From the NCBI RefSeq assembly GCF_028768465.1, contig NZ_CP118225.1, positions 744,001-808,000 of the forward strand: a DNA stretch of 64,000 nucleotides, read 5' to 3'. A model generated the notes under the pieces. It did not search any database and was not told the origin of the DNA. It worked only from the letters and a program-made list of their open reading frames with translations. Within the stretch, counting starts at the first letter, position 1. The number at the start of each line of letters is the position of its first letter. Shown here in pieces: positions 24,188-44,025 of this stretch. The position numbers and the translations under genes are program-made. This DNA is from Rhodopirellula sp. P2 (GTDB lineage: Bacteria > Planctomycetota > Planctomycetia > Pirellulales > Pirellulaceae).

Positions 24188-24474
24188 GATCAAGACTTCG
24201 GGTTGGCGGCACAACCCGAGGAATGCGAAAGGGTTGAGATCCGGGCAAAACCGCAGCGGAAACCGTTTCGAGAGCCCCCAAACTGTTTCGTGAATTCCGA
24301 GGGAGGGGCAAAAAGATGGGATTGACTGGGGTATCGGGATGGTTCACGCTGCGCAGTCAGTTGAGCACCACATTTGGGTTGGTTGGTTTGTTTTGGAAGC
24401 GTTTTCCAGTGAAACGAGCCCGAATGCGAGAGGCATCTTGCCTCGTTGGTGACGGTTTGCAGGGTATCAGATCA

Positions 24475-24909
24475 GTGACGAACATTTATGTCGGGAACCT
24501 TTCGTTCAAGGCCACCGAAGAAGAGCTCCGTGGCGCGTTCGAACAGTATGGCGAAGTGTCAGCTGTGAACATCATCATGGATCGAGAAACAGGACGTAGT
24601 CGCGGATTTGCCTTCGTCGAAATGGCGGATGCCGAAGGCGCGAAGGACGCGATTGAAAACCTGAACGGTCATGAAATTGATGGCCGTGGTGTGACGGTCA
24701 ATGAAGCTCGACCTCGCGAGCCACGCAGTGGTGGCGGCGGCGGCGGTGGTGGAGGCTACGGCGGTGGTGGCGGCGGTCGCGGCCGTGGTGGCGGCGGCGG
24801 TGGTTACGGCGGTGGCGGTGGCAACCGCGGCGGTGGCTACGGTGGCGGCGGCGGTGGTGGATACGGCGGCGGCGGTGGTGGCGGCTACGGTGGCCGCGGC
24901 GATCGCTAA
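24475..24909 (+). CDS. RRM-type RNA-binding protein with glycine-rich tail
   Basis: A single RNA-recognition motif fills residues 1-80: RNP2 is IYVGNL and RNP1 is RGFAFVEM. The tail from about residue 85 is almost entirely Gly with Tyr and Arg, like cyanobacterial and planctomycete Rbp proteins, and such tails promote self-association. GTG 24475 gives the canonical [11 protein letters not shown] start. However, an in-frame ATG at 24316 has a much stronger ribosome site (GAGGGAGGGG) and would add 53 residues, so the start is open. A strong terminator follows at 24943. Confidence 0.87.
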
Positions 24910-24942
24910 TCCCGAAACCAACGACGAATCAGATTCACGAGC

Positions 24943-24980
24943 GGAAACCAGTCTGGCATCAGACTGGTTTCCGTTTTTTT
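24943..24980 (+). terminator. Strong intrinsic terminator after the RRM gene
   Basis: A perfect 13-bp stem (GGAAACCAGTCTG paired with CAGACTGGTTTCC) with a GCAT loop is followed by G and seven T residues. It ends 34 bases after the RRM stop. The gene at 25046 approaches from the other side. Confidence 0.92.
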
Positions 24981-26394: not shown

Positions 26395-27192
26395 TCACAC
26401 GCGAATGCTGACGCCACCGTCGATCACGAGCGTTTGCCCTTGAATCAAATCACTTCCTTCGCTGCACAGAAACGCCACCACGGACGAGACATCTTGTTCG
26501 CACAGGCGGCGTTTGCCGACCATCATTCGTTCGCTCGCAGCTTCGATCAGGCCCTCGGAACCTGGCATGCTGGCGATGGCATCTGTGGCAATGATGCCCG
26601 GCAACACGCAATTGAAGTTGATCCCGCGGTCGCCAAACTCCAGTGCGAGGTGACGCACCAAAGCTTCAAGTGCCGCCTTCGATGCCCCAATGGCTCCATA
26701 GTGAGGCACGGCCCAATTGGAACCGTGGCTGCTCACTGCGACCAACTTCCCATGCGAATCCCCGGCGGCCAAATGCTCCCATGCCGCCTGAGCCAACCAA
26801 ACCACGGGTGCCGAATTGCTGCGAAGCACCGCTTCGAAGTTGACGGGGGTCAGGTCATTCAAATCACGAAAACCGCCGGCCGCAGCATTGCTGACCACGA
26901 TGTCCAATCCGCCCCATTTCTGAGCGACACTCTCAACCATCGCTTCCACGTCTTCTTTCGATGAGACATCGGCTCGCACCAACATCACCGTTCCGCCTGA
27001 GTCGGCAATTTCCGTCGCGACTTGGACCGCTTGTTCCTCGGACTTCAAGAAATTGATCGCAACCGAAGCCCCTCGAGCGGCCAACTCCAATGCAATTGCC
27101 CGACCAATGCCACGACTGGCACCGGTGACGAGCGCTCGCTTGCCTACTAAATCCGCCAATGGTTTCATGCTTGATCCTGATCCCTCATTCAT
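26395..27192 (-). CDS. Short-chain reductase of the FabL enoyl-ACP reductase type
   Basis: This 265-residue Rossmann enzyme has the cofactor loop LVTGASRGIGRAIALEL and the NxA motif in VSNAAAGG. The active-site segment HYGAIGASKAAL has Tyr and Lys separated by six residues. YxxxxxxK is the spacing of enoyl-ACP reductases (FabI/FabL), not the YxxxK of ordinary SDRs, and the surrounding sequence is like Bacillus FabL. Enoyl reduction is the one step missing from the megasynthase encoded upstream, so it may act in trans on that chain. It overlaps the Rieske gene by 8 nt. A second possible start is ATG 27168. Confidence 0.82.
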   Translation of the reverse strand: MNEGSGSSMKPLADLVGKRALVTGASRGIGRAIALELAARGASVAINFLKSEEQAVQVATEIADSGGTVMLVRADVSSKEDVEAMVESVAQKWGGLDIVVSNAAAGGFRDLNDLTPVNFEAVLRSNSAPVVWLAQAAWEHLAAGDSHGKLVAVSSHGSNWAVPHYGAIGASKAALEALVRHLALEFGDRGINFNCVLPGIIATDAIASMPGSEGLIEAASERMMVGKRRLCEQDVSSVVAFLCSEGSDLIQGQTLVIDGGVSIRV

Positions 27193-28372
27193 GATGATCT
27201 TCCAACGAATCTTTGTTTGACTTCATGCTTCCCGCCTTCATCGATTCCTGCCAGTGCACATGAAAGGCATGCAGCCTCTCCTCACAGCGTCCAAAGATCC
27301 GACTTGCCTCCTCGTTCACCCCAGCCGCGCCGGCTGAATTCATTCCGGCCTGCACCCGTGGAAAGATCGCTGCGTCTTCGGCCAACACTTTTCGCGCCAT
27401 CGATGCGGCGCTGCGTCCCAACCCGTTCGCGACCATCTTCCCGACAATGCCCGAGCGTTTGGGGCGACGCGTGAATCCGAACACCGTCATTTTGCTGGTT
27501 GAAATTCCAATCGGAGTGATCTGATAGACCAAACTCATCGTGTCGGTGAACGACGCCATGATATTTGGGAACACATGCACATGCTGATAATGCGGCCCGA
27601 ATTCTCCGACCATCCAACGCATCACACGTTCTTCCATCCGCGCCAACAAGGAATCCTCGCGTACATCCGTTCGGAACCGAGTTCCCCACGCCATCAACTC
27701 ATGCGTGCTTTCGCTTTCACCTGGATCGCTGCCAAACGTTTGCGAGTGAACCTCACTGAGATGATAACTTTCGAGCGAACCTTCGATCGGGATTTTCCAA
27801 TCGCAGGGATACTCCAGTTCCTCTTGCAGAACTTGCCTCCACGACGTCGCATCCGTGTTCGCTGCGAAGTCGCTCACCCAATCATCGTCGCCGAGCGTCA
27901 CGAGCCCCGATTCACCGGCTCCCTGACTGGCTCCACCAGACAGATTCACGAAGACCAACTGGCCAACCACTTGCACCGGAAAACTCCCCAACCGATAGCG
28001 TTCCCGATCGAAGTGCGGAAAATTCTTTGCGGCAGGAATCTTGCGAGTGCGTCCATCGCCGCCGTACTGCCAACCGTGGTAAGGGCACTTCAACTCTTTC
28101 GCGTGGCCGCCGCCTTCCGTCACCAGTTGGCACTGCCGATGCGCACACACGTTTCGCAGCGCCACCAATTCGCCGTCGTGGTTGCGAACGATCAGTGGCA
28201 CTCCCAATCGGTCCAGCGCTTGGTAGTCGCCCGACTGCGAGAGCTCCGTCGTGGTTGTGACCAATTGCCATCCTGCCTGACGCAGTGCAATTTGTTCGCG
28301 ATCATGAATCGATGAATCGGTGTACCAAGTCGACGGCAACAGAGCCGGCAGGGACGTCGTGGCGTGATACAT
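27185..28372 (-). CDS. Rieske non-haem iron oxygenase
   Basis: The 395-residue protein has a Rieske [2Fe-2S] site with its Cys-His pairs in CAHRQC and CPYHGW (residues about 77-102). A catalytic domain follows, with a mononuclear iron motif of the ring-hydroxylating oxygenase type (ESYHLSEVH, about residue 205). It is the size of an oxygenase alpha subunit. Such enzymes hydroxylate, desaturate or demethylate their substrates using electrons from a separate reductase. Its start is 3 nt from the megasynthase stop, and it overlaps the FabL-type gene, so it very probably acts on the megasynthase product. Confidence 0.88.
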   Translation of the reverse strand: MYHATTSLPALLPSTWYTDSSIHDREQIALRQAGWQLVTTTTELSQSGDYQALDRLGVPLIVRNHDGELVALRNVCAHRQCQLVTEGGGHAKELKCPYHGWQYGGDGRTRKIPAAKNFPHFDRERYRLGSFPVQVVGQLVFVNLSGGASQGAGESGLVTLGDDDWVSDFAANTDATSWRQVLQEELEYPCDWKIPIEGSLESYHLSEVHSQTFGSDPGESESTHELMAWGTRFRTDVREDSLLARMEERVMRWMVGEFGPHYQHVHVFPNIMASFTDTMSLVYQITPIGISTSKMTVFGFTRRPKRSGIVGKMVANGLGRSAASMARKVLAEDAAIFPRVQAGMNSAGAAGVNEEASRIFGRCEERLHAFHVHWQESMKAGSMKSNKDSLEDHHE

Positions 28373-28375
28373 GGC

Positions 28376-31300
28376 TTAGCGAAGCCAACCGATTCGATAG
28401 CCATCGATTCGCAAGATCAGTTCCCGATTCTGGCCAATCAAAACCGCCGACATCAGGCCGCCGTCGGAACCGCCAGAAGAACCATCAGTTGCTTCACCTT
28501 CCCACTGCACGTGAACTTTCAATGGCTCGCCGGGATCAGGCAACCGACCGATTTCGATGCAATCAAATGAGACTGGCAAACTCGGCCGATCAGCAACCCG
28601 GTAAGCGAGCATGCCCGCCGCGTACAAAACCGCATCCATCGTGGCTGGTGACAAAACCCATCCCAACAACGGACGCGCCTCGCCTGCCAAGTGAGCTGGA
28701 CTGGGCGCGACGATGGTGCCGATCGCACGAGGTCGTTTCGCAGGATCTCCGCCAGACAAACCGGCGTCGGCATTCCCAAATCCAATCGTTCGCAAACACT
28801 GAAGCGATGGACCGTGATAGATCGGAGCCTGCTCGCTGGCGTATTGCACGGCTGACTCGACCACATCTTCGCTGCCCAGCGACACGACTGGCAGGCTGTC
28901 ATCACCCAACTCAATCGTCGCCGCAAAATGCGGGCGTTGGGCTTGGACCAATCGACCATCTCGGCGACGCAAATCGCTGACCAAAGACCAACGGTCCGGC
29001 ACTGTCGGATCTCGCAACAACTCCACCGCAAGGGCGTCATCTGTCATGAATTTGAGCGGCATCGTGGCCGAAACATCACGGCAACGCATGACTTTTTGAT
29101 CGGTGCCCCAGCGAGCCGCTTCGGCCAGCATTTCGATCGCCATCACGAACGGCAACGTGGGACGTCCGTTGACCAAGTGATGCTTCAAAAACAGATCGCG
29201 TTCGGGGTCCAATGTCACCGCGAAGGAATCCTGCGATGTCGCTGGCATGCGTTCCGTTGGATCGATCATGGGCGATGGACCGGGCAACGAGCTCCCTAAT
29301 CGCGACGATTCGGCGGGGAAGAATTTGCGTACATAACGGCGATCCGTGATCAGCACCTCGGCTTCCTCACCACCGTGCTCGACTTCGTTTAAAAAGTGCT
29401 GCAGCCCTTCTTCAGCCGGCATGAATTCCATGCCGATCATGTCCAGTGCCAGCTTGGCTTCAGGCTTGGTCGCCATCCCGACATCGCCCCAAGCGTGCCA
29501 ATGAAAGGTCACGCATCGCGTCTCGGGACGCTGCTGTCGCAATCGCCCGATCAACTTGGCAAGCATCTCGTTGGCTGCGGAATAGTCCGTGTGTCCATTG
29601 GCACCGAAACGTCCGCTGATCGAACCGTAACCAAGGAACCATTCCAATGGATCGTTCTGCGTCGCGGATGCGAGCGCAATCGTGCCATCGATTTTGGCGG
29701 AAAAACACTGCGCCACTTTGTCGGGTCGCTTGCGATCAAAACGCGCGTCTTGGCCGGATCCGGCACCTTGGATCACACCACGGATAGGACCGTCCACGCT
29801 TCGGATTTTGGCAACAACCTCCGCCACCGCTTCGAAGTCCGAAACGTTGACGCTGTGATAGGTGGCCTCAATCGACCGTTCTCGACACGCTTCGAGCGTC
29901 AGGTCAATCTCGATGGCCTTCTCGAATTGCCGCCAAGTCTTGACGGGGTTGCCGCCTTCTCGCTGAATGCGCGCCATCTCGGATCGACGCAGGTCCGCTC
30001 GATCTCGCAGAGCATGTTCCCGCACGGAGGGGTCAATGTGCGGCACCGGGGCCATCCCCAGTAAATGCAGTTTCAACCCGTGACGTTCGGCCAATGCCAT
30101 CGCTGTCATCGCCGTGATCCCACGACCTCCGCCGGCGACGATCCAAGTGCCACCAGGGGTGACCTGAGTCATCTGCGATGAAACATCGAGCGGAGAGTAG
30201 CGAGCTTCCGTTGCCAATCGCTGCTCACCTGCGACCGCGACTTCTTCGTCGTAGGACGGAACAGCTAACTCACGAAACACACCCTCGGCCAATTCCTCAG
30301 GGCTCGCATCCTCGATCTGATCAACGATCAACATCGGCGTGTCGCGGTAACCACGCATCCAGGCCTCGATCAACATCGCTTTGGTCAAACCAGCCAATCC
30401 GCCCGACTCGGCTGAACGACCATGAATCTGCGCAGAAGACTGAGCCAATGTCGACATGGCGTCGAAACCAAACCCGCCTCCCATCTTCAAGGTGGAAACC
30501 AACGAAGCCTGAGCCATCCGATCTTCGTCGATTGTTCGCTGCATCCAGCGCTGACAAACGCGATAGGGAATCGCAAGCGCATCGGATTGACGCTGTTTCC
30601 AACTCGTCGCGTCCAACGTTGTCCAACAAGCCGCATCGTCGTGCGGTGTGGTCAGGAAAAGGTGCGGTGTCGCATCAACGGACCAGACACGATCCAGTTC
30701 GGCATCGAGCTCTGGCAAAGTCAGCTGAGCTGCGATGCGATGAACCGGGACACCTGCCATTTGACATCGAGTCGCGATTGCATCGGCGACCGGGTTGTTG
30801 CCAAGAATCAGCGCGGCCCCATTGAGCGGAGGCATCGTCGGCATCCCATCGCGTCGAGGTGCCGATTTCGTTCGCATCACGAAACGATGGGTCCCCGAGG
30901 CGGGTGCCTGGGACGTCACTTCGGACGAGTCAGAACTGAGATTCAGCGAGGCGTTTTTTTTTTCGTCCGCAGGCTGACCAATCTGCTCCATCACAAACGC
31001 ATGGATCGAAGACAAGGTCGGAAAATCCGACAGCTTCAAGTTCGACTCGCGAAGCGATTGCAACTCGTACTGTTGTTCCAGCTCGCCCAGCAACTGAGCT
31101 CGCTTGATGCTGTCGATCCCAAGTTCGCCTTCCAGATCCGCGTCCATGTCGATGATGTCTTCGTCGTAACCGGTTTGATCCACGACCAAGTCGATCATCA
31201 AACGTTGCAACGATTCCGCGGTGCTGTCGAGGTCCTGCGTCGGAATGGATTCGGACTGGTCGTTGTGTCCGCATGCGTCCATCGGAACGGACGCGAATTC

Positions 31301-34300
31301 GCTGCCTTCGATTTCAGCTGGATCACCGACCAGTTGCAGGATGTCATTGAGCGAAGCGAACTGAGCCAATCGCATGGACTGCGTGTCGACTTCCAAGTTG
31401 CCCCACTGAACGATTTCACCGATCAGCTGAGCCTTCTTGATGCTGTCGACACCCAACTCGGCTTCCAAGTCCGCGTCGAACTCGATCACCTCTGGGTCGT
31501 ACCCCGTCAAATCCACCACGAGGTCAAACAAGAATGATCGAGCTGACCGCAGACGTTGCTGCATGTCCGCATTCGAAGCACGATTCGCCGCGGCGGTGAC
31601 CGTTGCAATCGGCTGCATTTGACTGGAAACCACATCGCCATTTTGCATTCCGTTGCGATGATCACTTCCGTTCTCGCTGACCGAATGAACCGTCGCGGGT
31701 GCCACGACGCCAGAGGATCCCCTGACGTCCGAAACCGGCTTGAATGCCGACCGCGGCTCCTCCTGCGAGACTTCTTGTTGACGTCGACTCCGCCGCGTGA
31801 CATCGACGACTTCGAACGCTGGCCGCGACGCCGTCATCGTGCTCGGCTGATGAACATCCGTTTGTGACGACGCCACGGACACGCTTGTTTCGGAAACCGA
31901 TTCACTCGATGCCTTGGTCGATTGACCGAGTGATTCGTACGCCAACTCGATCAATTGTCGCTGACGATTTGGGTCGCGACCACGGTCATCCGCCGACATG
32001 CAGAGCACGTGCGGAGCAACCGTTGCAGTGGCCAATCGAGTCAGCACATTGTTGGGGCCAACCTCAACCAGTAATTCGCACCCATCGTGAACCAATCGCT
32101 CCGTCGCTCCGCTGAAGCACACCGGACGCGTCAACTGTGTGACCAAATTGTCAACGATGTCAGATGGCTCGGCCAGATATCGATTCGACACCGCCGACAA
32201 AAACGCAAAGCGTGGCGGACGCGCGTTCTGGCCGGTGAATCGAGCTTGCAGCATTTCTTGAGCTGGCATCATCTCGGGAGTGTGAAAAGCGGCCGGCACA
32301 GGAATCACAACCGACGCCATGCCAGCAGACGCCAGCTGCTTTTTCGCGGCCGTCATTTGCTCAGGGGCACCGGCGATCACTGTCTGTTGCGGTGAGTTGT
32401 GGTGCGAAATGGTGTAGCGAATTTCGGATCCTTGCAGAGCAGCGTCGACCGCCGATGGCGCTCCACGAACCGACAACAGTTCACCTCTTTCACGTGTCGT
32501 CATCACCACGCTGTCGCTTCGTGACTTTGCAAACTCGATGGCTTGCCGTGTGGTCACAACGCCCGCGCACCAAGCGGCGGTGCATTCGCCAAAGCTGTGC
32601 CCCAGCACCGCATCAGGACGCAAACCGCGACGCAGCAACGAATCCGCAAACATGGAACCAACTGCCAACACCCACGCCTGTGTCCACCACACATCGCGTC
32701 CGAGTTGCGATTCAGGATCGTGCAAACGATCCGAGATCACAGGCAAACCAAGCGATTTCAGCCGTTGATCGAAACCGTCCAAGAAAGCTCGGCTAGCAGA
32801 TGAATCCTCGGTGTCCAACCAAGTCGGAACAGCCGAGTACTGCGAACCTTGCCCAGGGAACAACCAACCAACACGTGGACTGGCACACTCACCAGAGCGA
32901 GCGTTTGGTAGCCAAACCCAACCATCCTTTTTCGCCAACATCCCGGAGGCTTGTTGACGAATGGGCCCCGCAATCGCCGCTGATGCTGCGGCTGCCAACT
33001 CGCTGTCGTCTTTGCCCAACAAGACCGCTCGACAGGCCGTCGCGGAGGAGGACGTGAACGCCGACACGCAGCTTTCGCTCGCCGACTTTCCTGAGGCAAC
33101 CTCGCTCAGGGCGACTCGCAACGCTTCCAAGGTCGCGCACTGCAGACGAACAACGAGCGTTCCCGACGAACCAGGCACCGATTCCTTCCTCAAGGATTCG
33201 GAACGAGATCGCGTCGACACGGAAGAAGTCGGCTGCGGCGTGGATTCGAGTGAGGTCGAAATCAAAGGAGTCTCACCGGAAGGCAAAGTGGACGGCTCAT
33301 AGTTCATTTGGGGGGAGACACTATAATTGACTCGATATCCATCGTCGGCAACTTCCCCGATCGGAATTGAAACGTTCGAAGTCGGCTTGCTGCTGAATTG
33401 GGGCGTCAAAGTCGCCGCTATTGCTCGAATGATACCCTGACCGCCGCCCAAATGACCAATTTGGCCGACCAGCTTTTGGGAAGAAATAAATCCAGGCACC
33501 TGGGAATGACGAGCCGATTCAGCTCGCGCGGCCGCAACATCCGCCGAAAACGCCTCGGTTGGCTTGGACAACACGCCTAAAATGGTTCGCCCCTGTGCCT
33601 TGGCGTCGGACAAACGCTGAAGCGTCAAAACCGCAACGCCCTCGCCAGGAATGATCTGGGATCCATCGTCGGGCAAATCTTCCGGGCGGCCTGATGGCAA
33701 CAGCTGCTCTTTGTGTGCGAGCTGCTCGAAGGCGACCAAGTCCATCCCGCGTTGAGTCACACCGCACAACGCCAAATCGATCGCTCCCTCATGCAACTGT
33801 TCCATCGCAGTGATCAACGCCAACCCGCCGGAGGCTTCGTCCGCGTCGACCGCGAACGCTCCGCCCATCAAGTCAAACGTTCTCGCGATTCGCGACGCGA
33901 GCGTGCTGGCCGTGAACCCACCGGTCTCATCCAGCAAAGCACCGTACTTTTCAAGCGTCAGCTTTCGCAGTTCATCAGCAACAATGTTTGTTTTTAAATC
34001 ATCCCATCCCATCGATGCCAGCGTGCGACGAAGATGCTGGTTGATCTCAGGCAACCGCAAACCAATTTGCAACTCGTTGCTGAACTGGCCGCCAAAGATG
34101 GTTCCAACGACCACGCCGACTCGCTCGCGATCAACCGACCACTGGCCGCCATCGAACTCATCCATCGCCTGCCGAACAGCCTCGATCAGCATCAATTGAG
34201 CCGGGTTGGCATTGGCCACCATTTTCGGCGGGATTCGATACGACTGAGCATCGAATTTGAAATCTCGAATGTATCCGCCACGGCAATGCGGCGTCGTGTA

Positions 34301-37183
34301 ACTCGATCGATCCGCACCTGGGTTCACACCAAGCCAAGCTCCGCTGCGAGTGCCGACCCAGCGGCCTTCCGGCGGATCGCTGATTGCAGACCGACCGCTT
34401 TGCAGCAACTCTCGAAATGCTTGAAGATTGGCAGCACCAGGCAACACGACACCGCGGCCAACAATTGCGATGGACTCCTCGACTTGCTGTTCTTGCGCGG
34501 TTGCTCGCCGGGAAGAAGGCATCTCTTCAATCACGGCATGAGCATTCAATCCGCCGATACCAAACGCATTGACAGCCGCCACGCGACCCTCGGAAGCTGT
34601 GCGACGTTGCCACGGTTCCACGCGGTCGACAATCCGAACCGGTGATTGATCCCAATCGTGACGTTCGGTTGGCAACGCAAAATTGATCGAAGGTGGAATC
34701 TTCCCGCGACGCATCGCCAGCAAGCACTTCACCACACCGACCAAACCAGCCGCTTCCAACAGATGCCCCAAGTTGCTTTTGACACTGCCGATGGGCAACA
34801 CACTCTGCTGACTTTGGTTGGTTCGCAACAGCGAAGTCAAACTTTCCAGTTCGGTGGCATCGCCCACTTGAGTGCTGGTGGCGTGGCACTCCAAGTAATC
34901 AATGTTGAGCGGATCCGAATCGACGGCGCGTCGCATCGCTGTTTGTTGACCTTCACTTCGCGGCGCCCACAGACCTTTGCCTTTGCCATCCGACGCGACA
35001 CCTACACCTCGCAAGGTTGCCAGGACGGGCAGCCCATTGGCCTCGGCAACACTTCGTCGAGCCACGACCACCGCCACATAACCTTCGCTGCTGATCAACC
35101 CGCTGGCACGGTTGTCGAACGGAAACGATCCTGTCTCGCTGCACGCACCTGACTGAGAGAACAACGCCAAGTTGTCGACATTGTTGAACGTCGCGCCACC
35201 GACGACCGCCAAATCCAAGCGGTTCGCTTCGATGGCGGATGCCGCATGCTGCAGCGCCAACAGAGACGACGAACAAGCCGCATCGATCACCTCGCGACGG
35301 CCTTCAAATCCCATCAACCGCGCGGCCAAAGAAGCCGCCGAATAGGCATTGAAAGCCGGTGAATGCCCCGATTCATACCGCGGCCGATCGCGACGAATGG
35401 CGGATGAAATCGATGCTTTGACCTGTTTTTTCGAATCAGAATCGACGGATTGCAGCGAAGGAACCTGGTCAACCAACTCCATCGCCGTGTCTGCCATCGT
35501 CGCCATGGCAAGCGGTCCGCCCAACTCTGTTCCACCACTGTGCCCAACAAAGACGCCAGCCCGAACGGGATCAACTGCGAGTGGACGATCGGATGTGCAA
35601 TGCAGTGCCGAGGTGGACGACAAACCGCACGATCCCGAAGCTGCCTTGAGCGCCGCCACAGCGACCTGAGCAAACTGCCGATGCGTCAGGTCAAATACCC
35701 CGAGCGACCCAATCGCCTGCTCAACCGCAACATCCAATGGATCAGGTGAAACACAGCCACCAAGTTGCGTGTAGGTCTTTCCTGGAACGCCTTTTTGATT
35801 CTCGAAGTACAACTCGCGGTTCAAGCGATCTTCCGGCATCGGCGCGATCACCGAACGACCTTCAAACAGCATCTCCTCGAACGCTTGTGCGTTATCAACG
35901 CCGCCCGGCAAACGAACCTCAAAACCACAAATCACGCAGTCATCAGGATCGCCACCTTGGCCGACGACTGCTGGTTTCGCCGTGGGTTGCCCCGTCGCGG
36001 AAGTCTGTTTCGCCACCTTGGGTGCTTTCGATGGAACGGCCGACCAGTTGCCGATCATCTGCAGCAGTTCCTCACTGCCGATTTCAGGCGTGTCGTCCAG
36101 GTGCGTTGTTGCAATCACATCATCGATGTTCGCACGATCAAAGATGGGATCGTCTCGAAAGTATGGCAAAAACGTTTTCACAAATGGGCCGGCCATTTGA
36201 TCCAGTTCTTGCCGTTCGCTGCCTGCCCGCGTTGAGGTCTTGCTGAGTTGCCGCGGTCGTTTCAGCCGATCCGGCTTTCGAGTCTGCAACCACTTCGTCG
36301 TCGCGGAATGAAATGCCGCGTCCAAGGACTCAATTGCCGTGCCCTCGCGTGTGGTCAGATGATACGTCCGGCCATGCAATCGAGGCGTGCTCATCACCTT
36401 GCAAATGGCCCGTGCGATCCAGTCCACGTCCACAATGTTCTTGCGTTCGCTTCCTGAAAACCCCAGGTCTCGAAACCACTGCCCATCTTCGGGCAAACCA
36501 AATCGCGACGCCAACATTTGGTACATCGAGAAGGCACCATAGATCGTTCGATCGCCGGAGACCGGCGACAGTCCCGTTCGATCGATCACGATCGACGGTC
36601 GATAAACGGTGAGATTCGACTCGCCGAATGATTCGCGAACGATCCCTTCCGCAATCAGCTTGCTGCGTTCGTAGTCGTTCGCAAACGATTGGCCGACCGC
36701 TCCTTCGGTTTCCTTCACGCGTCCCGATCGTTTGCCGCAAACGTACGCGGTGGAGACATGGTGGAACTGCGAGATCCCAACCTCCTGGCAAAACGCCAAC
36801 ACTTTCCCGGTGCCGTCGACGTTGGTTCGATAGGGCTCATTGTCGCCCTCCGGGTCAGCCGGCAGGAAGCTCAGGCTGGCTGCACTGTGCAACATTCGAT
36901 CGCAGTTGGCCCGCACCCACTCAATCGACTCTTCTTTCAACCCCAGAGCATCTTGGTTCAAATCGCCTTCCAAAATCTTTGGACGTGGCAGGGACACTTG
37001 CCAGGCGTTCTCAAATCGACCGAGGATTTGCTCCATCCGTTGCTCTGCCGTCAATTTCCCCTTCGCGCGTACCAAAACCGCGCATTCGGTCCGGTCTCGC
37101 AATAACTCTGCCACCACATAAGAACCGAGCATTCCGCTGGCTCCCGTGATCAAGGGCATTCGTCGAGAGGTTGAATGGGACAT
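28376..37183 (-). CDS. Giant iterative lipid/polyketide synthase (TER-KS-CLF-AT-ACP-ACP-KR-DH)
   Basis: The 2935-residue chain has eight recognisable parts. A thioester-reductase-like Rossmann domain fills about 1-385 (TGASGMLGSYV; YERSK). A ketosynthase spans about 410-885, with Cys in DAACSSS near 636 and His in ECHATST and NLGHLLEAAG. A second KS-like domain (about 905-1290) has its Cys site replaced (VDADEASGG near 1116), like a chain-length factor. An acyltransferase has Ser in GHSFGE near 1531. Two ACPs carry LGVDSIKKA (about 1914) and LGIDSIKRA (about 2026). A ketoreductase (GGGRGIT near 2356; DYSAAN) and a hotdog dehydratase (HHLVNGRPTLP near 2669) end the chain. This resembles PUFA synthases and the heterocyst glycolipid synthase family. 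The N-terminal reductase suggests release as aldehyde or alcohol. No phosphopantetheinyl transferase is in the window. Confidence 0.93.
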   Translation of the reverse strand: MSHSTSRRMPLITGASGMLGSYVVAELLRDRTECAVLVRAKGKLTAEQRMEQILGRFENAWQVSLPRPKILEGDLNQDALGLKEESIEWVRANCDRMLHSAASLSFLPADPEGDNEPYRTNVDGTGKVLAFCQEVGISQFHHVSTAYVCGKRSGRVKETEGAVGQSFANDYERSKLIAEGIVRESFGESNLTVYRPSIVIDRTGLSPVSGDRTIYGAFSMYQMLASRFGLPEDGQWFRDLGFSGSERKNIVDVDWIARAICKVMSTPRLHGRTYHLTTREGTAIESLDAAFHSATTKWLQTRKPDRLKRPRQLSKTSTRAGSERQELDQMAGPFVKTFLPYFRDDPIFDRANIDDVIATTHLDDTPEIGSEELLQMIGNWSAVPSKAPKVAKQTSATGQPTAKPAVVGQGGDPDDCVICGFEVRLPGGVDNAQAFEEMLFEGRSVIAPMPEDRLNRELYFENQKGVPGKTYTQLGGCVSPDPLDVAVEQAIGSLGVFDLTHRQFAQVAVAALKAASGSCGLSSTSALHCTSDRPLAVDPVRAGVFVGHSGGTELGGPLAMATMADTAMELVDQVPSLQSVDSDSKKQVKASISSAIRRDRPRYESGHSPAFNAYSAASLAARLMGFEGRREVIDAACSSSLLALQHAASAIEANRLDLAVVGGATFNNVDNLALFSQSGACSETGSFPFDNRASGLISSEGYVAVVVARRSVAEANGLPVLATLRGVGVASDGKGKGLWAPRSEGQQTAMRRAVDSDPLNIDYLECHATSTQVGDATELESLTSLLRTNQSQQSVLPIGSVKSNLGHLLEAAGLVGVVKCLLAMRRGKIPPSINFALPTERHDWDQSPVRIVDRVEPWQRRTASEGRVAAVNAFGIGGLNAHAVIEEMPSSRRATAQEQQVEESIAIVGRGVVLPGAANLQAFRELLQSGRSAISDPPEGRWVGTRSGAWLGVNPGADRSSYTTPHCRGGYIRDFKFDAQSYRIPPKMVANANPAQLMLIEAVRQAMDEFDGGQWSVDRERVGVVVGTIFGGQFSNELQIGLRLPEINQHLRRTLASMGWDDLKTNIVADELRKLTLEKYGALLDETGGFTASTLASRIARTFDLMGGAFAVDADEASGGLALITAMEQLHEGAIDLALCGVTQRGMDLVAFEQLAHKEQLLPSGRPEDLPDDGSQIIPGEGVAVLTLQRLSDAKAQGRTILGVLSKPTEAFSADVAAARAESARHSQVPGFISSQKLVGQIGHLGGGQGIIRAIAATLTPQFSSKPTSNVSIPIGEVADDGYRVNYSVSPQMNYEPSTLPSGETPLISTSLESTPQPTSSVSTRSRSESLRKESVPGSSGTLVVRLQCATLEALRVALSEVASGKSASESCVSAFTSSSATACRAVLLGKDDSELAAAASAAIAGPIRQQASGMLAKKDGWVWLPNARSGECASPRVGWLFPGQGSQYSAVPTWLDTEDSSASRAFLDGFDQRLKSLGLPVISDRLHDPESQLGRDVWWTQAWVLAVGSMFADSLLRRGLRPDAVLGHSFGECTAAWCAGVVTTRQAIEFAKSRSDSVVMTTRERGELLSVRGAPSAVDAALQGSEIRYTISHHNSPQQTVIAGAPEQMTAAKKQLASAGMASVVIPVPAAFHTPEMMPAQEMLQARFTGQNARPPRFAFLSAVSNRYLAEPSDIVDNLVTQLTRPVCFSGATERLVHDGCELLVEVGPNNVLTRLATATVAPHVLCMSADDRGRDPNRQRQLIELAYESLGQSTKASSESVSETSVSVASSQTDVHQPSTMTASRPAFEVVDVTRRSRRQQEVSQEEPRSAFKPVSDVRGSSGVVAPATVHSVSENGSDHRNGMQNGDVVSSQMQPIATVTAAANRASNADMQQRLRSARSFLFDLVVDLTGYDPEVIEFDADLEAELGVDSIKKAQLIGEIVQWGNLEVDTQSMRLAQFASLNDILQLVGDPAEIEGSEFASVPMDACGHNDQSESIPTQDLDSTAESLQRLMIDLVVDQTGYDEDIIDMDADLEGELGIDSIKRAQLLGELEQQYELQSLRESNLKLSDFPTLSSIHAFVMEQIGQPADEKKNASLNLSSDSSEVTSQAPASGTHRFVMRTKSAPRRDGMPTMPPLNGAALILGNNPVADAIATRCQMAGVPVHRIAAQLTLPELDAELDRVWSVDATPHLFLTTPHDDAACWTTLDATSWKQRQSDALAIPYRVCQRWMQRTIDEDRMAQASLVSTLKMGGGFGFDAMSTLAQSSAQIHGRSAESGGLAGLTKAMLIEAWMRGYRDTPMLIVDQIEDASPEELAEGVFRELAVPSYDEEVAVAGEQRLATEARYSPLDVSSQMTQVTPGGTWIVAGGGRGITAMTAMALAERHGLKLHLLGMAPVPHIDPSVREHALRDRADLRRSEMARIQREGGNPVKTWRQFEKAIEIDLTLEACRERSIEATYHSVNVSDFEAVAEVVAKIRSVDGPIRGVIQGAGSGQDARFDRKRPDKVAQCFSAKIDGTIALASATQNDPLEWFLGYGSISGRFGANGHTDYSAANEMLAKLIGRLRQQRPETRCVTFHWHAWGDVGMATKPEAKLALDMIGMEFMPAEEGLQHFLNEVEHGGEEAEVLITDRRYVRKFFPAESSRLGSSLPGPSPMIDPTERMPATSQDSFAVTLDPERDLFLKHHLVNGRPTLPFVMAIEMLAEAARWGTDQKVMRCRDVSATMPLKFMTDDALAVELLRDPTVPDRWSLVSDLRRRDGRLVQAQRPHFAATIELGDDSLPVVSLGSEDVVESAVQYASEQAPIYHGPSLQCLRTIGFGNADAGLSGGDPAKRPRAIGTIVAPSPAHLAGEARPLLGWVLSPATMDAVLYAAGMLAYRVADRPSLPVSFDCIEIGRLPDPGEPLKVHVQWEGEATDGSSGGSDGGLMSAVLIGQNRELILRIDGYRIGWLR
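30954..30963 (-). repeat. A10 homopolymer inside the megasynthase gene
   Basis: The coding strand has ten consecutive A residues (GAC GAA AAA AAA AAC GCC) at about codon 2074, in the Ser-rich linker between the second ACP and the ketoreductase. A slip of one base would put ribosomes or RNA polymerase into a frame that meets a stop within about eleven codons (at 30930). The product would then end after the ACPs. Confidence 0.6.
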
Positions 37184-37695
37184 GCTGAAAGCAGGGCGGT
37201 GTTAGCACGCCCTCAAATGGCTGAAGAACAAATGTTTCGTAGTGCCCAAGTCTATTCACCGAATCCGCTGTGCAAATGTCGTGGCACAAAAAGATGGCGT
37301 TGCCCCATGCCCCCAAACCAAAAATCCGAATCAATCGGATCACGCGGGCTAGGCGGATCGTGGCGATCGCTCACGCCGTGGCTCCCGGCGCTGGCAACCT
37401 CTTTCCAACGCGTCATTGAGAATCCAAGCCCGCCAAACTCGTCCCTGCCCCCGACATTCTCTCGCCATCAAAACAGCAGTCTTTCAGTTCACCGCGATGC
37501 CGATTCAGCTCAACCGCACCAACTGTCCACTTCGCTAAATCGCGAAATTCACGTTGAAAACGGGTTTCCGGTTTGGCGACACCACCCAAAGAGACTAGTT
37601 TGATTGGGACCCATGGAGACCTGTTCACTCGAATATCCAAGATCGATTCGGCTGTGCTTTGCTCCTGATTTCCTCTCTCAGCTAGACCTGCGATC
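37184..37695. other. Divergent intergenic region, no gene seen
   Basis: These 512 bases separate the starts of the megasynthase (minus) and the radical SAM gene (plus), so promoters for both must lie here. Frames on both strands have poor composition and no start context. I could not place convincing -10/-35 boxes. Confidence 0.5.
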
Positions 37696-39444
37696 ATGCA
37701 TTCGACGCCCAATCCGTCCCGGTTGCCGGCATCACCCAGACTGCCCGAGAGCCCTGATTCGCCCGTTCGCTGCCTGATGATCCAGCCCTGCTTCGAACAA
37801 ACCAACTACTGGAATTTCGTTGAAAGCGCCAAAGCGATTGGCGCGAAAGCCACCGCACCGCCACTGGGCCTGATGACCGTCGCGGCCTTGTTGCCCCAGC
37901 AATGGGAATTTCGGATCGCGGACCAAAACGTCGCGCCGGTGGAGGAATCCGATTGGGAATGGGCCGACGTGATTTGCACGGGAGGCATGCTGCCCCAGCA
38001 ACCTGGCATCCTGCACTGGGTGGAACGCGCCAACGCGGAGGGAAAGTTCGTCGTCGTCGGTGGACCGGACCCAACCAGCCAACCACAGATCTACCAAGAC
38101 GCCGATGCGGTCGTCGTTGGCGAAGGTGAACTGACCATCCCGATGTGGCTGGATGCCTGGCGAGATGGCAATCCCAAAGGTCAATTTGAATCACCGCACA
38201 AACCCGATGTGACCACGACGCCGACGCCGCGTTTCGACTTGGTGGACTTCAATGACTACCTGCACGTCGGGGTGCAATCCTCCCGAGGCTGCCCGTACAA
38301 CTGCGAATTCTGCGACATCATCGAGCTGTTCGGCCGGCGTCCTCGCGTCAAAAATCCCGATCAGTTCCTCGCCGAACTGCAACGACTTTATGACTTGGGC
38401 TACCGAGGCTGGGTCGACTTCACGGACGACAACTTCATTGGCAATCGCAAACTGATCAAACCGTTGCTGGTTGCGCTCAAGCAATGGAACGAAGAACACA
38501 ATTACCCGTTTGTGTTCTCCACCGAAGCCAGCATCAATCTCGCCGACGACAAAGAACTGCTGGAACTGATGCGAGACGTTCAGTTCCGCTACGTCTTCCT
38601 GGGAATCGAGTCCCCTGATGAGGAAACGTTGATTCACACGCAAAAACGAATCAACACCGTGCATCCGATCATCGATCGAGTGCGAACGATCTACGACCAC
38701 GGGATCTCCGTCGCGGCCGGGTTGATCATCGGATTTGACACCGACAAACCGGGCACCGATGGCCCCATGATCCGTTTCATCCAAGAAAGCGGCATCACAC
38801 TATCGATGGTGGGCTTGTTGTCAGCGCTCCCCAACACACAGCTCACCCGGCGGCTATCCAAAGAACGTCGTCTGATTGATTCCGAACACAATTGGATTCA
38901 AGACCCGGGCGCTAAATACGAGCTTCGAAGTGTGGAGTCCAAGGATCAAACGATCAGCGGAATGAACTTCGTCACCACACGAGATCGAGTGGAGATCTAC
39001 CAAGAGCTTCGCAACATCATTGAAAACGTCTACTCGCCGCGAGCCTTCATGGACCGGGTGATCGACACGGCGGCGCGAATCAAAATCGTCAACAAACATG
39101 TGCCCAACGCATGGGAATTCCGCCGCATGTTCAAGGGGTTCCGGACCATCGCCTGGCGAATGCTTCGCGACAAACGCACGCGATCGCTTTACATTCGCAA
39201 CTTTGTTCGTGCAGCCATGATGGGGCCGACCAAGTTCGAATACGCGCATACCGTCATGGGCAGCTTCCTGCATTTTGATCTGCAGACCCAGAAGATGCTG
39301 GAGGCCCTCGATGTTTCCATCGACTTCGCCAAGCACCACGCCAAATACCCGCGAAGCGTCGCCGACATGCCAGCCATGGCCACCCAAAGCCAAGTCGTCT
39401 CGCTACCACTCGCACAATCCGAGGGCTGTCCCCCTCCCAACTAA
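37696..39444 (+). CDS. B12-binding-type radical SAM protein
   Basis: The 582-residue protein has an N-terminal cobalamin-binding-like Rossmann half (residues about 20-170, PPLGLMTVAALLP, VVVGGPDPTS). A radical SAM barrel follows, with the iron-sulfur motif in SSRGCPYNCEFCDI near residue 200 (CxxxCxxC). A C-terminal helical extension of about 200 residues resembles DUF4070. Relatives methylate or rearrange unactivated carbons, often on lipids such as hopanoids. It is transcribed divergently from the megasynthase, so it may act on the same lipid, although that link rests on position only. Confidence 0.88.
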   Translation: MHSTPNPSRLPASPRLPESPDSPVRCLMIQPCFEQTNYWNFVESAKAIGAKATAPPLGLMTVAALLPQQWEFRIADQNVAPVEESDWEWADVICTGGMLPQQPGILHWVERANAEGKFVVVGGPDPTSQPQIYQDADAVVVGEGELTIPMWLDAWRDGNPKGQFESPHKPDVTTTPTPRFDLVDFNDYLHVGVQSSRGCPYNCEFCDIIELFGRRPRVKNPDQFLAELQRLYDLGYRGWVDFTDDNFIGNRKLIKPLLVALKQWNEEHNYPFVFSTEASINLADDKELLELMRDVQFRYVFLGIESPDEETLIHTQKRINTVHPIIDRVRTIYDHGISVAAGLIIGFDTDKPGTDGPMIRFIQESGITLSMVGLLSALPNTQLTRRLSKERRLIDSEHNWIQDPGAKYELRSVESKDQTISGMNFVTTRDRVEIYQELRNIIENVYSPRAFMDRVIDTAARIKIVNKHVPNAWEFRRMFKGFRTIAWRMLRDKRTRSLYIRNFVRAAMMGPTKFEYAHTVMGSFLHFDLQTQKMLEALDVSIDFAKHHAKYPRSVADMPAMATQSQVVSLPLAQSEGCPPPN

Positions 39445-39764
39445 CTCGTAGCCAGCCAATTCTCCCGTAGCCGGATTCGCCAGAGTTCGGTTCGGACCAC
39501 ACTGAGATCACATTCGCGACACCCCCTGTCATCAACTTAAGTGTCCGGCGGTTCATTCCAGCTGCAACAAACAATTCCTTTCCATTGCGGGACCCTGCCC
39601 ACCCTTATAAAGACCTGATGGCAAAGCGGCTCAAATCCAGTTGAAAGTACAATGAAGATCCCTTTTATTCTGATCGTCGCAATTAGAATGCCCCCGTCCA
39701 CCCAGCCCCCAGGCCGCGTGGGCCAATCCTTCTCATCTTGACCGTCCAACTTAGCTAGCGATTG
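39445..39764. other. Intergenic region, no gene seen
   Basis: A 320-base gap precedes the polysaccharide genes. It becomes AT-richer near 39600-39680 (TTGAAAGTACAATGAAGATC, CTTTTATTCTGATC), where a promoter is plausible. No reading frame or strong hairpin was found. Confidence 0.4.
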
Positions 39765-41342
39765 ATGCCGCACTTAGACACAAATCCGCTGCCGGTCGGT
39801 GTCGTTTGCACAGACACGATCGAACAACTGGACCCATTTGTCCCCAGCGCCGCGGTCACCGACCATCGCCGCACCCAGCGAAACACTTCCAGCCCCAGAC
39901 GTCGCCGTGTTACCCGCAACAAGGCAACTGGTGCCGGTCAGGTGCTCCTGACACTGGCGCCGTTGCTCGCAGCTGACCTCGCTGCCTTGACTTGCTCAAT
40001 TCTCATTGCAGCGATGCCTCTTCTCGTTCTCAGCTCGGCTGGGCTTCAATCAGGGCTGCTACTCAACAGCATTTGCGTCGCGACATTTTACATCGCATGC
40101 GCAGCGATTTACGGCCTGTATCCTGGAACTGGAATGAGTCCGGTGCTTGAATTGCGACAGTCTGTTCTTGCCGCGATGGCCGCCTTCGCTTTCGCAATCA
40201 TTGCGAACTTTTTCCTAGCGACGCTCAGCCTGAGCGAATTAACCGTCTTTTGCGTCGCCTCGGTTGTTGCATCGCTGCTCGTACCGCTGGCTCGACTAAC
40301 GACCCGGCGTCTTTGCTCACGAACAAGCTGGTGGGGCGAAAACGCGATCATTGTCGGCTCGGGCCCTCAAGGTCGAGCGATCTACCGATACTATTCTCGT
40401 GCCCCTCAACGTGGCCTACGTCCAATTGGCGTCGTTGACTTTGCCAAGACAGCTTCCGCTCAGGATTCCCTCGATTTGGCTGGCATACCGTATTTAGGTT
40501 CCGTGCAAAGATTGGAGCGTTTGCGTCGAAAAACACAAGCTCGTTGGTCGATTGTTGCACCTGGCGGGTGTGAAACAATCGACATGAACGAGGTCCTCTC
40601 CCATGCCGGCAATTTCTCCAACGTTCTGATTCTCCCCTCCCAGATGCAGCTTCCTAGCCTCTGGTCAGGATCGCGGGAGTGCGCGGGTGCCATGGGGATC
40701 CACCTGAAGGATCATTTGCACAACCACCCCGCGAGAGCCGCTAAGCGATTCGTCGACATTTGTATTTCCGCCCTCGCGCTGGGCGTTCTTTCTCCGTTCA
40801 TCCTCGTCTTCATTCTCCTGCTGAAGTTGCGTGATCCAGGCCCCGCCTTCTATGGGCAAACACGGGTCGGCAAAGACGGCAAGCCCTTCAAGGCCTGGAA
40901 GTTTCGAACCATGGTCATCGACGCCGACCAAGTCCTGGAAGAATATCTCGAAAACGACCCCGACATGCGTCAGGAATGGATCGAATACCAGAAACTGCAG
41001 AACGACCCTCGAATCATTTCTGGCATTGGCTCATTCCTTCGGAAGTCGAGCCTTGACGAACTGCCTCAATTGTGGAATGTCCTGAAAGGAGACATGAGCC
41101 TGGTAGGACCAAGGCCATGCATGACCTCTCAAACGTCACTCTATGGCAACGTGCTTCCCCTCTACCAGCGCGTCCGTCCAGGAATCACCGGCCTCTGGCA
41201 AGTCTCAGGCAGAAACAAAACAACCTACGACCAACGCGTCCGCTTCGACAGCTACTACGTCACGAATTGGTCTCCTTGGCTCGACATCTACATTTTGATT
41301 CACACCTTGAAAACAATTGCACTCCGGGAAGGTGCCTATTGA
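39765..41342 (+). CDS. Polyprenyl-phosphate sugar phosphotransferase (exopolysaccharide initiation)
   Basis: This is the initiating enzyme of exopolysaccharide synthesis: it moves a sugar-1-phosphate onto undecaprenyl phosphate. The N-terminal half has four to five membrane helices (residues about 60-185) and a nucleotide-binding-like fold (IIVGSGPQGRAIYRYY, near 195). The C-terminal third is the bacterial sugar transferase domain, with one more helix and then GQTRVGKDGKPFKAWKFRTM, SLDELPQLWNVLKGDMSLVGPRP and RPGITGLWQVSGR. ATG 39765 was preferred over TTG 39762. Its TGA overlaps the TTG start of the next gene, suggesting coupled translation. Confidence 0.93.
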   Translation: MPHLDTNPLPVGVVCTDTIEQLDPFVPSAAVTDHRRTQRNTSSPRRRRVTRNKATGAGQVLLTLAPLLAADLAALTCSILIAAMPLLVLSSAGLQSGLLLNSICVATFYIACAAIYGLYPGTGMSPVLELRQSVLAAMAAFAFAIIANFFLATLSLSELTVFCVASVVASLLVPLARLTTRRLCSRTSWWGENAIIVGSGPQGRAIYRYYSRAPQRGLRPIGVVDFAKTASAQDSLDLAGIPYLGSVQRLERLRRKTQARWSIVAPGGCETIDMNEVLSHAGNFSNVLILPSQMQLPSLWSGSRECAGAMGIHLKDHLHNHPARAAKRFVDICISALALGVLSPFILVFILLLKLRDPGPAFYGQTRVGKDGKPFKAWKFRTMVIDADQVLEEYLENDPDMRQEWIEYQKLQNDPRIISGIGSFLRKSSLDELPQLWNVLKGDMSLVGPRPCMTSQTSLYGNVLPLYQRVRPGITGLWQVSGRNKTTYDQRVRFDSYYVTNWSPWLDIYILIHTLKTIALREGAY

Positions 41343-42487
41343 CAACTTTGCGTACACAAGACGAAAAAGGGCTTCCAAACCCGACGACTGAACCCAATGG
41401 CATCAAGATTCTGCATGTCTGCGAAACCGCGAAAGGTGGAATTGCAACTTACCTGCGAATTATGCACCATGCGACTTCGAACGAATTCGAACATCACGTC
41501 GTCCTACCAGAGCACCACAGGAAAGAACTGCAGGACCTAGAAAGAACTACAACCTTCCTTTCGGAAACCCGGTCATTGATCAGACTATTCAAGTTTCTCT
41601 CAGCAACTTGGCGAGCGTCGCGTGAACAAGCTCCAGACATTTTCTTCTTTCACAGCAGCTTCGCACTAGCTGCGTTAGCCTGTTCACGGTTCCGCTTGAA
41701 ACGCCAACCGATGATTTACTGCCCTCACGGATGGGCTGCATTGCAATTTCCTGACCATTCACTGAAGCGAAAAACCGTCAGTTTCGTCGAATATCGCCTA
41801 TCTAAGTTGGCCGATGTTGTTATCAATATTTCCGGACACGAACAAGGCTTTTGTCGACAGCGTTATCCTAAAGTGAACGCTGTACTTGTTGAGAACGCAG
41901 TCGAATCTCGTGAAGCGATGATCCTATCGTCTCCAATCCAAAAACTTGAAAACCATCTGAACATTCTTTTTGTGGGGCGACTGGACAGGCAAAAAGGCTT
42001 TGATATTCTCTTGCTAGCCTTCAAAGATGCAAGAAATGCTCGCCCCGACCTTCACCTTCACGTCGTCGGCGAATCTGTGCTTGCAAACCCTGGCTCTGAC
42101 GGGAATACCGAAGAGACTCCCGGTGTTACATTTTACGGTTGGAAATCTCCTACCGAAGTCCAGTCTTTCATCAATGACAGCGATATCGTCGTAGTTCCCT
42201 CTCGGTGGGAAGGCTTCGGCCTCGTGGTAGCTGAAGCTTATCGATCCGGTACCCCGGTCCTTGTCAGCGATCGTTGTGCCCTGCCGGAATTGGTAATCCC
42301 CAACAGAACCGGATGGGTGATACCCTTCGACCAACGCAAATGGTCTGAATCGCTCGCAAGACTAAAAAAGTCAGAATTGGCGGAAATGCAACACTGCTGC
42401 ACGTCTCTGTACGAGACGCGATTCCATTCTTCTCGGTTCGGCCGCGAATTAGACATCCTGTTTCGCCAGCTCCTGGAACGCAAATGA
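41339..42487 (+). CDS. GT4-family glycosyltransferase
   Basis: The protein has the two-Rossmann layout of GT4 enzymes. The N-terminal part contains LHVCETAKGGIATYLR, and the C-terminal part contains ILFVGRLDRQKGFDILLLAF and the donor-binding segment VVVPSRWEGFGLVVAEAYRSGTPV with its ExxxxxxE pattern. It would add a sugar to the lipid-linked repeat unit on the inner face of the membrane. The frame is open from 41072, but the part before 41339 lies inside the upstream gene and looks non-coding. TTG 41339 overlaps the upstream TGA and no ATG fits. It overlaps the next gene by 4 nt. Confidence 0.87.
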   Translation: MTTLRTQDEKGLPNPTTEPNGIKILHVCETAKGGIATYLRIMHHATSNEFEHHVVLPEHHRKELQDLERTTTFLSETRSLIRLFKFLSATWRASREQAPDIFFFHSSFALAALACSRFRLKRQPMIYCPHGWAALQFPDHSLKRKTVSFVEYRLSKLADVVINISGHEQGFCRQRYPKVNAVLVENAVESREAMILSSPIQKLENHLNILFVGRLDRQKGFDILLLAFKDARNARPDLHLHVVGESVLANPGSDGNTEETPGVTFYGWKSPTEVQSFINDSDIVVVPSRWEGFGLVVAEAYRSGTPVLVSDRCALPELVIPNRTGWVIPFDQRKWSESLARLKKSELAEMQHCCTSLYETRFHSSRFGRELDILFRQLLERK

Positions 42488-43386: not shown

Positions 43387-44025
43387 ACGACATGGGAATC
43401 TACGACAAGACATTACGGTGGCACCCATCTATGCTCGATCGCATAATGCCTCTCCATTGTGCTCCCAGATGCAGCGGAGCTTTGTCCGGGAGAGCAATAT
43501 GGAAACAGTATGCCTTGAACCACGGCACGGTTTCTTCTGAATTGAGCTTCAGAGGCGTTTACAGATAGGTCTGATCGATAAAACGATGCTTTTGAACGCC
43601 TTAAGCTTGCGAGAGCAGACCATGCCGTACTTTCTGTTTGAAGATGTCCGATGCATCTCCCTCCGTGTGCGTTTCAGTGCCGCCACTCGCTTCGGATCTA
43701 AAGACAGGCACGAACCATTTTCTGTTTTTCACGACACGATTAGTCGGTTCGGTTCTCGCTATTATTGGACCTATGGCAATCCGAAGGCGACACAGCATCT
43801 TGAAGAACATCTCGATTCCTCCCTGGAGGCGAATGGAACTCGACAGTTAAATGAAACCTACATTGGCTTATATTCCGGACTTCCGAGTTGCGTTCAAGCC
43901 GAGCGTCTTGAGGCTTGCGGTGACATGGTTGCATGTCACCGTCGGATTGACACGACCGTTGACACAGGCAGCCTTCAAGGAGTCGAATCTAGGGTTTGGA
44001 TCACTAACCAAGAACGGTTATTACA
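43387..44025 (+). pseudogene. Probable decayed gene between two sulfotransferase genes
   Basis: These 640 bases hold only short overlapping frames. One frame carries protein-like pieces separated by stops: 43374-43568, 43638-43850 (with FFTTRLVGSVLAIIGPMAIRR) and 43851-44033. A different frame (43586-44029) ends in an ATGA overlap with the next gene, as do the true junctions of this operon. I do not recognise any piece. The best reading is a gene broken by frameshifts and stops. A real but unfamiliar 147-residue gene at 43586-44029 cannot be excluded. Confidence 0.35.

Follow-up and report, generated by a model that had tools for sequence, protein, structure and literature searches.

Here, we identify a 2935-residue one-chain synthase, encoded on the minus strand of a 64,000-nt stretch of the Rhodopirellula sp. 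P2 genome (contig NZ_CP118225.1, positions 744,001 to 808,000; hereafter, the window), as the core of what sequence comparisons mark as a real, conserved planctomycete lipid-synthase cluster. The cluster would be of the kind that makes polyunsaturated fatty acids (PUFAs) or heterocyst glycolipids, with a different reductive set. On balance, we favor a model in which the protein is a planctomycete secondary-lipid synthase that releases its chain reductively as an aldehyde or alcohol, and in which a FabL-type enoyl reductase (ER) acts in trans. Related clusters are widespread in the order and follow a recurrent plan.

Domain organization of the synthase

The synthase open reading frame (ORF; 28376..37183, minus strand) is genuine and its catalytic motifs are intact. 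At E ≤ 0.001, Pfam detects NAD_binding_4 (residues 12-260), two ketoacyl-synt stretches with one Ketoacyl-synt_C, Acyl_transf_1, two PP-binding stretches, KR and a dehydratase of the polyketide synthase (PKS) type (PF21089, PF14765), and neither a FabA-like domain (PF07977) nor an NMO-type domain. Together with the motifs, these domains bear out the predicted 2935-residue fusion of thioester reductase (TR), ketosynthase (KS), chain length factor (CLF), acyltransferase (AT), two acyl carrier proteins (ACPs), ketoreductase (KR) and dehydratase (DH), in this order.

The N-terminal TR domain (36029..37162) contains TGASGMLG, STAY and YERSK. The original prediction let its reading of this domain depend on the cofactor residues; GxxGxxG, Ser/Thr and YxxxK are kept in all 16 fused TRs and in all 23 planctomycete free-standing TRs aligned, and that claim stands. 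In the TR of locus L115, the glycine motif begins with SG instead of TG. The domain scores 111 bits against TIGR01746 (cut-off 213.35), and its nearest PDB sequences are the reductase (R) domains of MxaA and of a type I PKS; Foldseek gives the same top rank, at a TM-score of ∼0.4 on a low-confidence model (outer half, mean pLDDT 54.8). The KS (34514..35941) has an intact Cys-His-His triad (DAACSSS, ECHATST, KSNLGH). In the CLF-like second KS (33284..34501), Glu replaces the catalytic Cys (DADEASGG), and we therefore rejected it as an active KS; Glu is also present at the aligned site of 6riw (ORF10), which we take to be PfaC of M. marina. The AT (31964..32896) has GHSFGE and AFH, which we read as malonyl specificity, and the two ACPs (30944..31546) have LGVDSIKK (DSIKK) and LGIDSIKR (DSIKR), the latter presumably PUFA-like. 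Finally, the KR (29384..30916) has the S/Y/N motif, with the stretch ahead of residue 2345 as its probable structural subdomain, and the PKS-type DH (28379..29296) has HLVNGRPTLP and the Asp in PATMDAVLY.

In six other genomes of the genus, one stop-free match with 58-93% identity spans nearly the entire synthase, and a chance ORF is therefore rejected. In three further genus genomes, the match is in two pieces. Separately, loci L010 and L080, from the draft contig G103:C166 of R. europaea 6C, have the synthase broken into ORFs of 2081 and 829 aa, either by a sequencing error or by a real break.

Distribution and a single fusion

The synthase is present in 10 of the 13 genomes of our genus sample, and the whole protein matches 19/100 genomes of the family at E ≤ 1e-100. 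At E ≤ 1e-80, a query made of KS and CLF finds 83 of the 296 sampled genomes of the order and 7/294 in a phylum-wide sample, all within the class of the window. With this breadth in the order and the recurrent cluster plan, these planctomycetes may make a widespread lipid that is so far uncatalogued.

We examined 17 fused-type loci (duplicates L011, L080 and L109 dropped from the counts) and 29 split-type loci. Locus counts are profile matches of ≥60 bits anywhere in a stretch of about 11-29 kb, so that "present" means nearby and not always adjacent; absences may reflect genes past contig or stretch ends, with some misses on short contigs, and the profiles were partly built from the loci that they then scored. 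TR is fused in 16 of the 17 fused-type loci, the 17th being cut by a contig end, and is a separate gene in 22/29 split-type loci. Thus, the predicted one-chain organization holds within the fused group and not beyond it. Some split-type relatives have two KS-CLF pairs. Among five loci from a different family in the same class, which are outside these 46, FabL is found in 2/5, TR in 1/5 and Rieske in 0/5.

The 16 fused TRs form a single clade (99/98) in a tree rooted on one very long row. Therefore, one fusion explains the one-chain form, which by its sequence relationships appears to be derived and restricted to this one clade. The window enzyme, which reduces the PUFA/heterocyst-glycolipid kind of synthase to a minimal form on one protein, could be expressed and dissected whole.

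The KS is of the PfaC type

The original prediction called for a KS phylogeny against PfaA and HglE, of which the PfaA part has been run: our trees cover PfaA- and PfaC-type references, without an HglE or HglC sequence, and the KS groups with the PfaC type and away from the PfaA type. The first tree kept 48 planctomycete rows of 63; left out were 10 second-KS (CLF) rows, L012, L069 and L070 (<350 residues), and two Embleya rows, which were re-cut by hand. All 48 planctomycete KS fall into one clade (100/98), which is joined to three PfaC-type KS (97/89; 1.0 with FastTree) and lies apart from PfaA-type and Type P KS. For a second tree, five plasmid regions contributed 15 further KS rows, most of them from modular-type PKS, along with one more PfaA/PfaC pair; the bootstrap of this tree is not fully settled and it includes one stray CLF row (L133, end branch 6.12). 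Here, the planctomycete clade (100/99) joins four PfaC-type KS (97/94). The Embleya PfaC reference is long-branched, and the KS of the three cyanobacterial plasmid regions opened, which hold no hgl reference, fall outside the PfaC/planctomycete group. On the strength of these trees, we read the window synthase as having a single KS-CLF pair, its KS PfaC-like, and no KS of the PfaA type.

A FabL-type reductase encoded beside the synthase

The gene order downstream of the synthase is as predicted: by ORF coordinates, the Rieske oxygenase gene (27185..28372, minus strand) starts 3 nt after the synthase stop and overlaps by 8 nt with the gene for P0002 (26395..27192, minus strand), a short-chain dehydrogenase/reductase (SDR) that we presume to be the trans-acting ER. 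Two observations support this assignment. First, the best PDB match of P0002 is the enoyl-ACP reductase 3oic, which we take to be FabL of B. subtilis, at 158 bits (next match, 129.9). Second, Tyr-x6-Lys, the FabL active-site motif, is present in 42/42 planctomycete homologues; it is lacking in a 43rd row from Embleya, a 69-bit SDR match.

The FabL-type gene is near the synthase in all 17 fused-type loci and in 25/29 split-type loci. In the genus, an orthologue lies beside the synthase in 10/10 synthase-bearing genomes, and none of the three synthase-less genomes has a match at E ≤ 1e-40. Because of this co-occurrence, we regard the FabL-type protein as belonging to the synthase system, and the absence of a match in the three synthase-less congeners led us to reject a role as housekeeping ER. 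Genome G045, in which two synthase clusters occur, also carries two FabL genes. Thus, of the two genes said to be conserved beside the synthase, FabL is so throughout the fused-type loci, and Rieske, in 12/17, only in part.

Proposed pathway

We infer the chemical steps, the chain length and the roles of the Rieske, wax synthase/diacylglycerol acyltransferase (WS/DGAT)-like, radical S-adenosylmethionine (SAM) and P0005 proteins from gene content and motifs. Because of the domain anatomy, the simplest reading comprises elongation, KR, DH and FabL steps and release by TR. We suggest that chain extension with malonyl units is carried out by the single KS-CLF pair on the two in-chain ACPs, and that KR and DH would process every β-keto group. 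The FabL-type SDR would reduce the enoyl intermediates in trans, in all or in chosen cycles. Subsequently, the N-terminal TR would use NAD(P)H to detach the chain from its ACP, giving an aldehyde or primary alcohol. In lineages that have the Rieske gene, the Rieske enzyme may oxygenate or desaturate the chain and, in many relatives, a nearby WS/DGAT-like acyltransferase may esterify the alcohol. The most likely product would then be a long-chain aldehyde or alcohol, which relatives bearing the WS-like gene perhaps esterify and which would be oxygenated where Rieske is present; the reduced and oxidized long-chain lipid of the original prediction is plausible.

More tentatively, and with somewhat less confidence than even chances would warrant, the clusters could represent a family whose members in the phylum-wide sample all come from the class of the window. 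This family would combine PfaC-like KS-CLF pairs with its own FabL-type ER in place of PfaD and a reductive chain ending. The capped chains would be wax-type esters or long-chain alcohols oxygenated by Rieske, destined for the cell envelope, and in the Rhodopirellula clade the system would have collapsed to a single protein with just one KS-CLF pair.

A gene scoring with WS-like profiles is found in 11/17 fused-type and 16/29 split-type stretches, and HHxxxDG is present in all seven WS-like sequences inspected (L009, L011, L012, L054, L055, L056, L063). In L009, L012, L056, L057 and L108, this gene lies between FabL and the gene for P0005; in the lineage of the window, these two are directly adjacent, an arrangement as after loss of the WS-like gene. 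This pattern is compatible with esterification of the alcohol in some lineages. A gene of the MMPL family, a candidate lipid exporter, lies upstream of the synthase in both split clusters tested (L058, L062). Separately, a metallo-β-lactamase-fold gene lies between the MMPL-family gene and the synthase in L058.

Several observations weigh against the proposed reductive lipid synthase. P0002 has the FabL equivalog of NCBIfam as its top family, at 227.7 bits under a cut-off of 328, and SDRs of this kind can be KRs. The WS/DGAT identity of the WS-like gene is weak: for PF03007, among four fused-type proteins, that of L011 passes, two are below the cut-off and that of L056 has no match, and two WS-like proteins score 52.7 and 29.2 bits against TIGR02946 (cut-off 309.95). 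Moreover, the window cluster has no WS-like gene and its genome holds only homologues of 22-24% identity. The window cluster genes include no phosphopantetheinyl transferase (PPTase) gene, PPTases being found elsewhere; a PPTase gene is near 12/29 split-type loci. No electron-transfer partner for the Rieske protein is found among the six window proteins scanned by Pfam, the genome not having been searched. The Rieske gene is itself absent from 5/17 fused-type and 14/29 split-type stretches. Lastly, the split-type relative L058 scores 929.5 bits against TIGR02813 (PfaA; cut-off 1010.1), so that the family lies nearer to PUFA synthases than one would judge from the window protein by itself.

Rieske oxygenase, radical SAM protein and P0005

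The Rieske protein, an alpha-type oxygenase by Pfam (PF00355, PF00848) and motifs, has CxH, CxxH, ESYHxxxxH and a later Asp; CxH/CxxH cluster ligands and a 2-His-1-carboxylate iron site are the motifs of Rieske alpha subunits. Its best PDB sequence matches are carnitine monooxygenase and phthalate and biphenyl dioxygenases, several of which act on rings, and its predicted structure has a mean pLDDT of 34.2. A Rieske gene is near the synthase in the 12 fused-type loci mentioned above and in 15/29 split-type loci.

Two further genes at the locus were absent from the original prediction. A B12-binding radical SAM (DUF4070) gene (37696..39444, plus strand) is divergent from the synthase and separated from it by a 512-nt gap; the interval originally described ends exactly at this gene. 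P0005 (25046..26335, minus strand) has an N-terminal hydrophobic segment and no Pfam or NCBIfam match. Its gene is the fourth co-directional one, 59 nt past the SDR gene, and lies ahead of a 17-pair hairpin with a T tail (24939..24976, plus strand), a candidate operon end between the end of the P0005 gene and a convergent gene (24316-24909). The hairpin comes from a consensus scan, and such sites are fewer in the region than in shuffled sequence.

Radical SAM genes are found in 14/17 fused-type stretches and P0005 in 11/17; in 10/17 fused-type loci, the latter follows FabL or the WS-like gene and closes the cluster. We consider it unlikely that the Rieske, radical SAM and P0005 proteins serve a separate pathway encoded nearby, leaving a system of synthase, TR and FabL only, although this is the rival explanation that survives best. 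In its favor are the stretches lacking Rieske, the rarity of radical SAM (1/29) and the absence of P0005 (0/29) in split-type stretches, and genomes G045 and G091, which keep the synthase without a Rieske or radical SAM orthologue. Genus-wide co-occurrence and gene spacing argue against it. The Rieske orthologue adjoins the synthase in 8/10 synthase-bearing genomes, all but the two just named, and the same eight have the radical SAM orthologue (83-100% identity). Neither orthologue is in any of the three synthase-less genomes, two of which have only paralogues (29-36%): among the five genomes without the radical SAM orthologue, G108 and G109 have only paralogues (35-36%) and three have no match at E ≤ 1e-60, and the synthase-less G109 has only a Rieske paralogue (29%). 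Also, the Rieske ORF, which overlaps that of FabL, is separated from the synthase by 3 nt. We retain Rieske in the proposed lipid pathway as what seems, on comparative grounds, an optional tailoring step. Strains with and without the Rieske gene are predicted to differ by one oxygen or double bond on the same chain.

Some minor observations concern these genes. The radical SAM orthologues are 83-100% identical across the genus, compared to 58-93% for the facing synthase. Assignment of P0004 to a ladderane-type radical SAM family was rejected (55.6 bits vs. 360). In L055 and L011, P0005 is encoded across the synthase, on the opposite side.

Alternative products

A bioactive or pigment polyketide instead of a lipid, made in a limited number of cycles, released as an aldehyde and then oxidized, as a conjugated or aromatic compound, by the Rieske enzyme, would agree with the ring-acting enzymes among the PDB matches of the Rieske protein and with the PKS-type DH. 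We think this improbable, slightly more so than the separate-pathway explanation: the FabL-type reductase in 42/46 loci argues for saturation, and the PfaC-type KS with its CLF and the WS-like and MMPL neighbors in relatives point to lipids. A polyunsaturated chain is less probable still and was rejected as first choice for lack of a FabA-like dehydratase/isomerase, despite the PfaC-type KS, the PUFA-like ACP motif LGIDSIKR and the L058 score of 929.5 against the PfaA model: the cluster has neither a FabA-like domain, of which the Persicobacter PfaC-type protein has two, nor a PfaD-type ER nor a PfaA-type KS (the window protein scores 540.3 vs. 1010.1 on the PfaA model), and reductive release suits an alcohol better than an acid. 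Such a chain could serve, e.g., hydrocarbons of the C31:9 type; C31:8 and C31:9 hydrocarbons in members of Planctomycetes are described in a passage of PMC2649909.

Comparison with known systems

The reductive lipid synthase proposed here shares most with two known kinds of enzyme. Passages of PMC11804610 list KS, CLF, AT, ACP, KR, DH, ER and thioester reductase for the hgl island of cyanobacteria, the products having keto or alcohol groups on C26-C32 chains. The planctomycete cluster has the same set of activities, with an ER of another type; however, hgl is a 19-gene island, while here one chain and a FabL-type ER are involved. With PUFA (Pfa) synthases, the window enzyme shares a PfaC-type KS with CLF, DSIK(K/R) ACPs, AT and KR. 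It differs in having a PKS-type instead of a FabA-like DH, a FabL-type SDR for PfaD, an N-terminal TR, and one PfaC-type and no PfaA-type KS. No PfaD-type ER (PF03060) is present in the six window proteins scanned by Pfam, the rest of the genome not having been searched, and two FabA-like stretches (PF07977) are detected in the Persicobacter PfaC-type control (L127). Against TIGR02813, L126 (1156.1 bits) and L043 (1192.7 bits) pass the cut-off, which the window synthase does not reach. In the relevant passages of Shulse and Allen 2011 (PMC3098273), planctomycetes already stand under Types I and J of the Pfa Types A-T; Type J of a planctomycete is given there as KS, malonyl acyltransferase (MAT), three ACPs (KS-MAT-ACP3-KR) plus PfaD, a layout unlike that of the window.

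Zeamine and fabclavine synthases resemble the window enzyme in being PUFA-like with a recruited thioester reductase domain, but make a polyamino-alcohol chain that is joined to a peptide-polyketide (passages of PMC13291983); the word Rieske does not occur in the main text of that paper. The Type P phenolic-lipid synthases of Azotobacter and Beijerinckia (L126) likewise build chains with KS-AT-ACP-KR, but have a PfaA-type KS, no CLF match, a fused NMO (FabK-like) ER, adjoining genes like those for 3-ketoacyl-ACP synthase III (KAS III) and no TR match. Because the hgl set of activities is equal, planctomycetes already figure in Types I and J, and an antiSMASH hglE-KS cluster is reported in part of a recent Pirellulaceae description (PMC13190842), the kind of enzyme is already known. 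In the literature searched, mainly at title/abstract level, we found no description of the fused layout with FabL, N-terminal TR and Rieske. As a side observation, TR may have been recruited independently in the Pfa-like cluster L043 of an actinobacterial (Embleya) plasmid, which has a free-standing gene for a TR-like protein (107 bits) one ORF upstream of its PfaA-like gene.

Other genes near the clusters

Beside the lipid cluster, 39762-44919 (plus strand) encodes a WbaP-type sugar transferase, a glycosyltransferase and two sulfotransferase-like proteins. A family-4-like glycosyltransferase gene lies at 41072-42487. We rejected these exopolysaccharide-type genes, from 39762 on, as members of the system: they lie beside the synthase in L010 and L073-L076 and not in L009, L011, L056 or L057, and the same holds for the sugar-transferase gene. 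Finally, the genome of the window has two more giant PKS ORFs, L069 and L070 (G000:C1:7175462 and G000:C1:2992772; ∼2480 and ∼3680 aa); they have an EAHGTGT motif, presumably the usual one in modular PKS.

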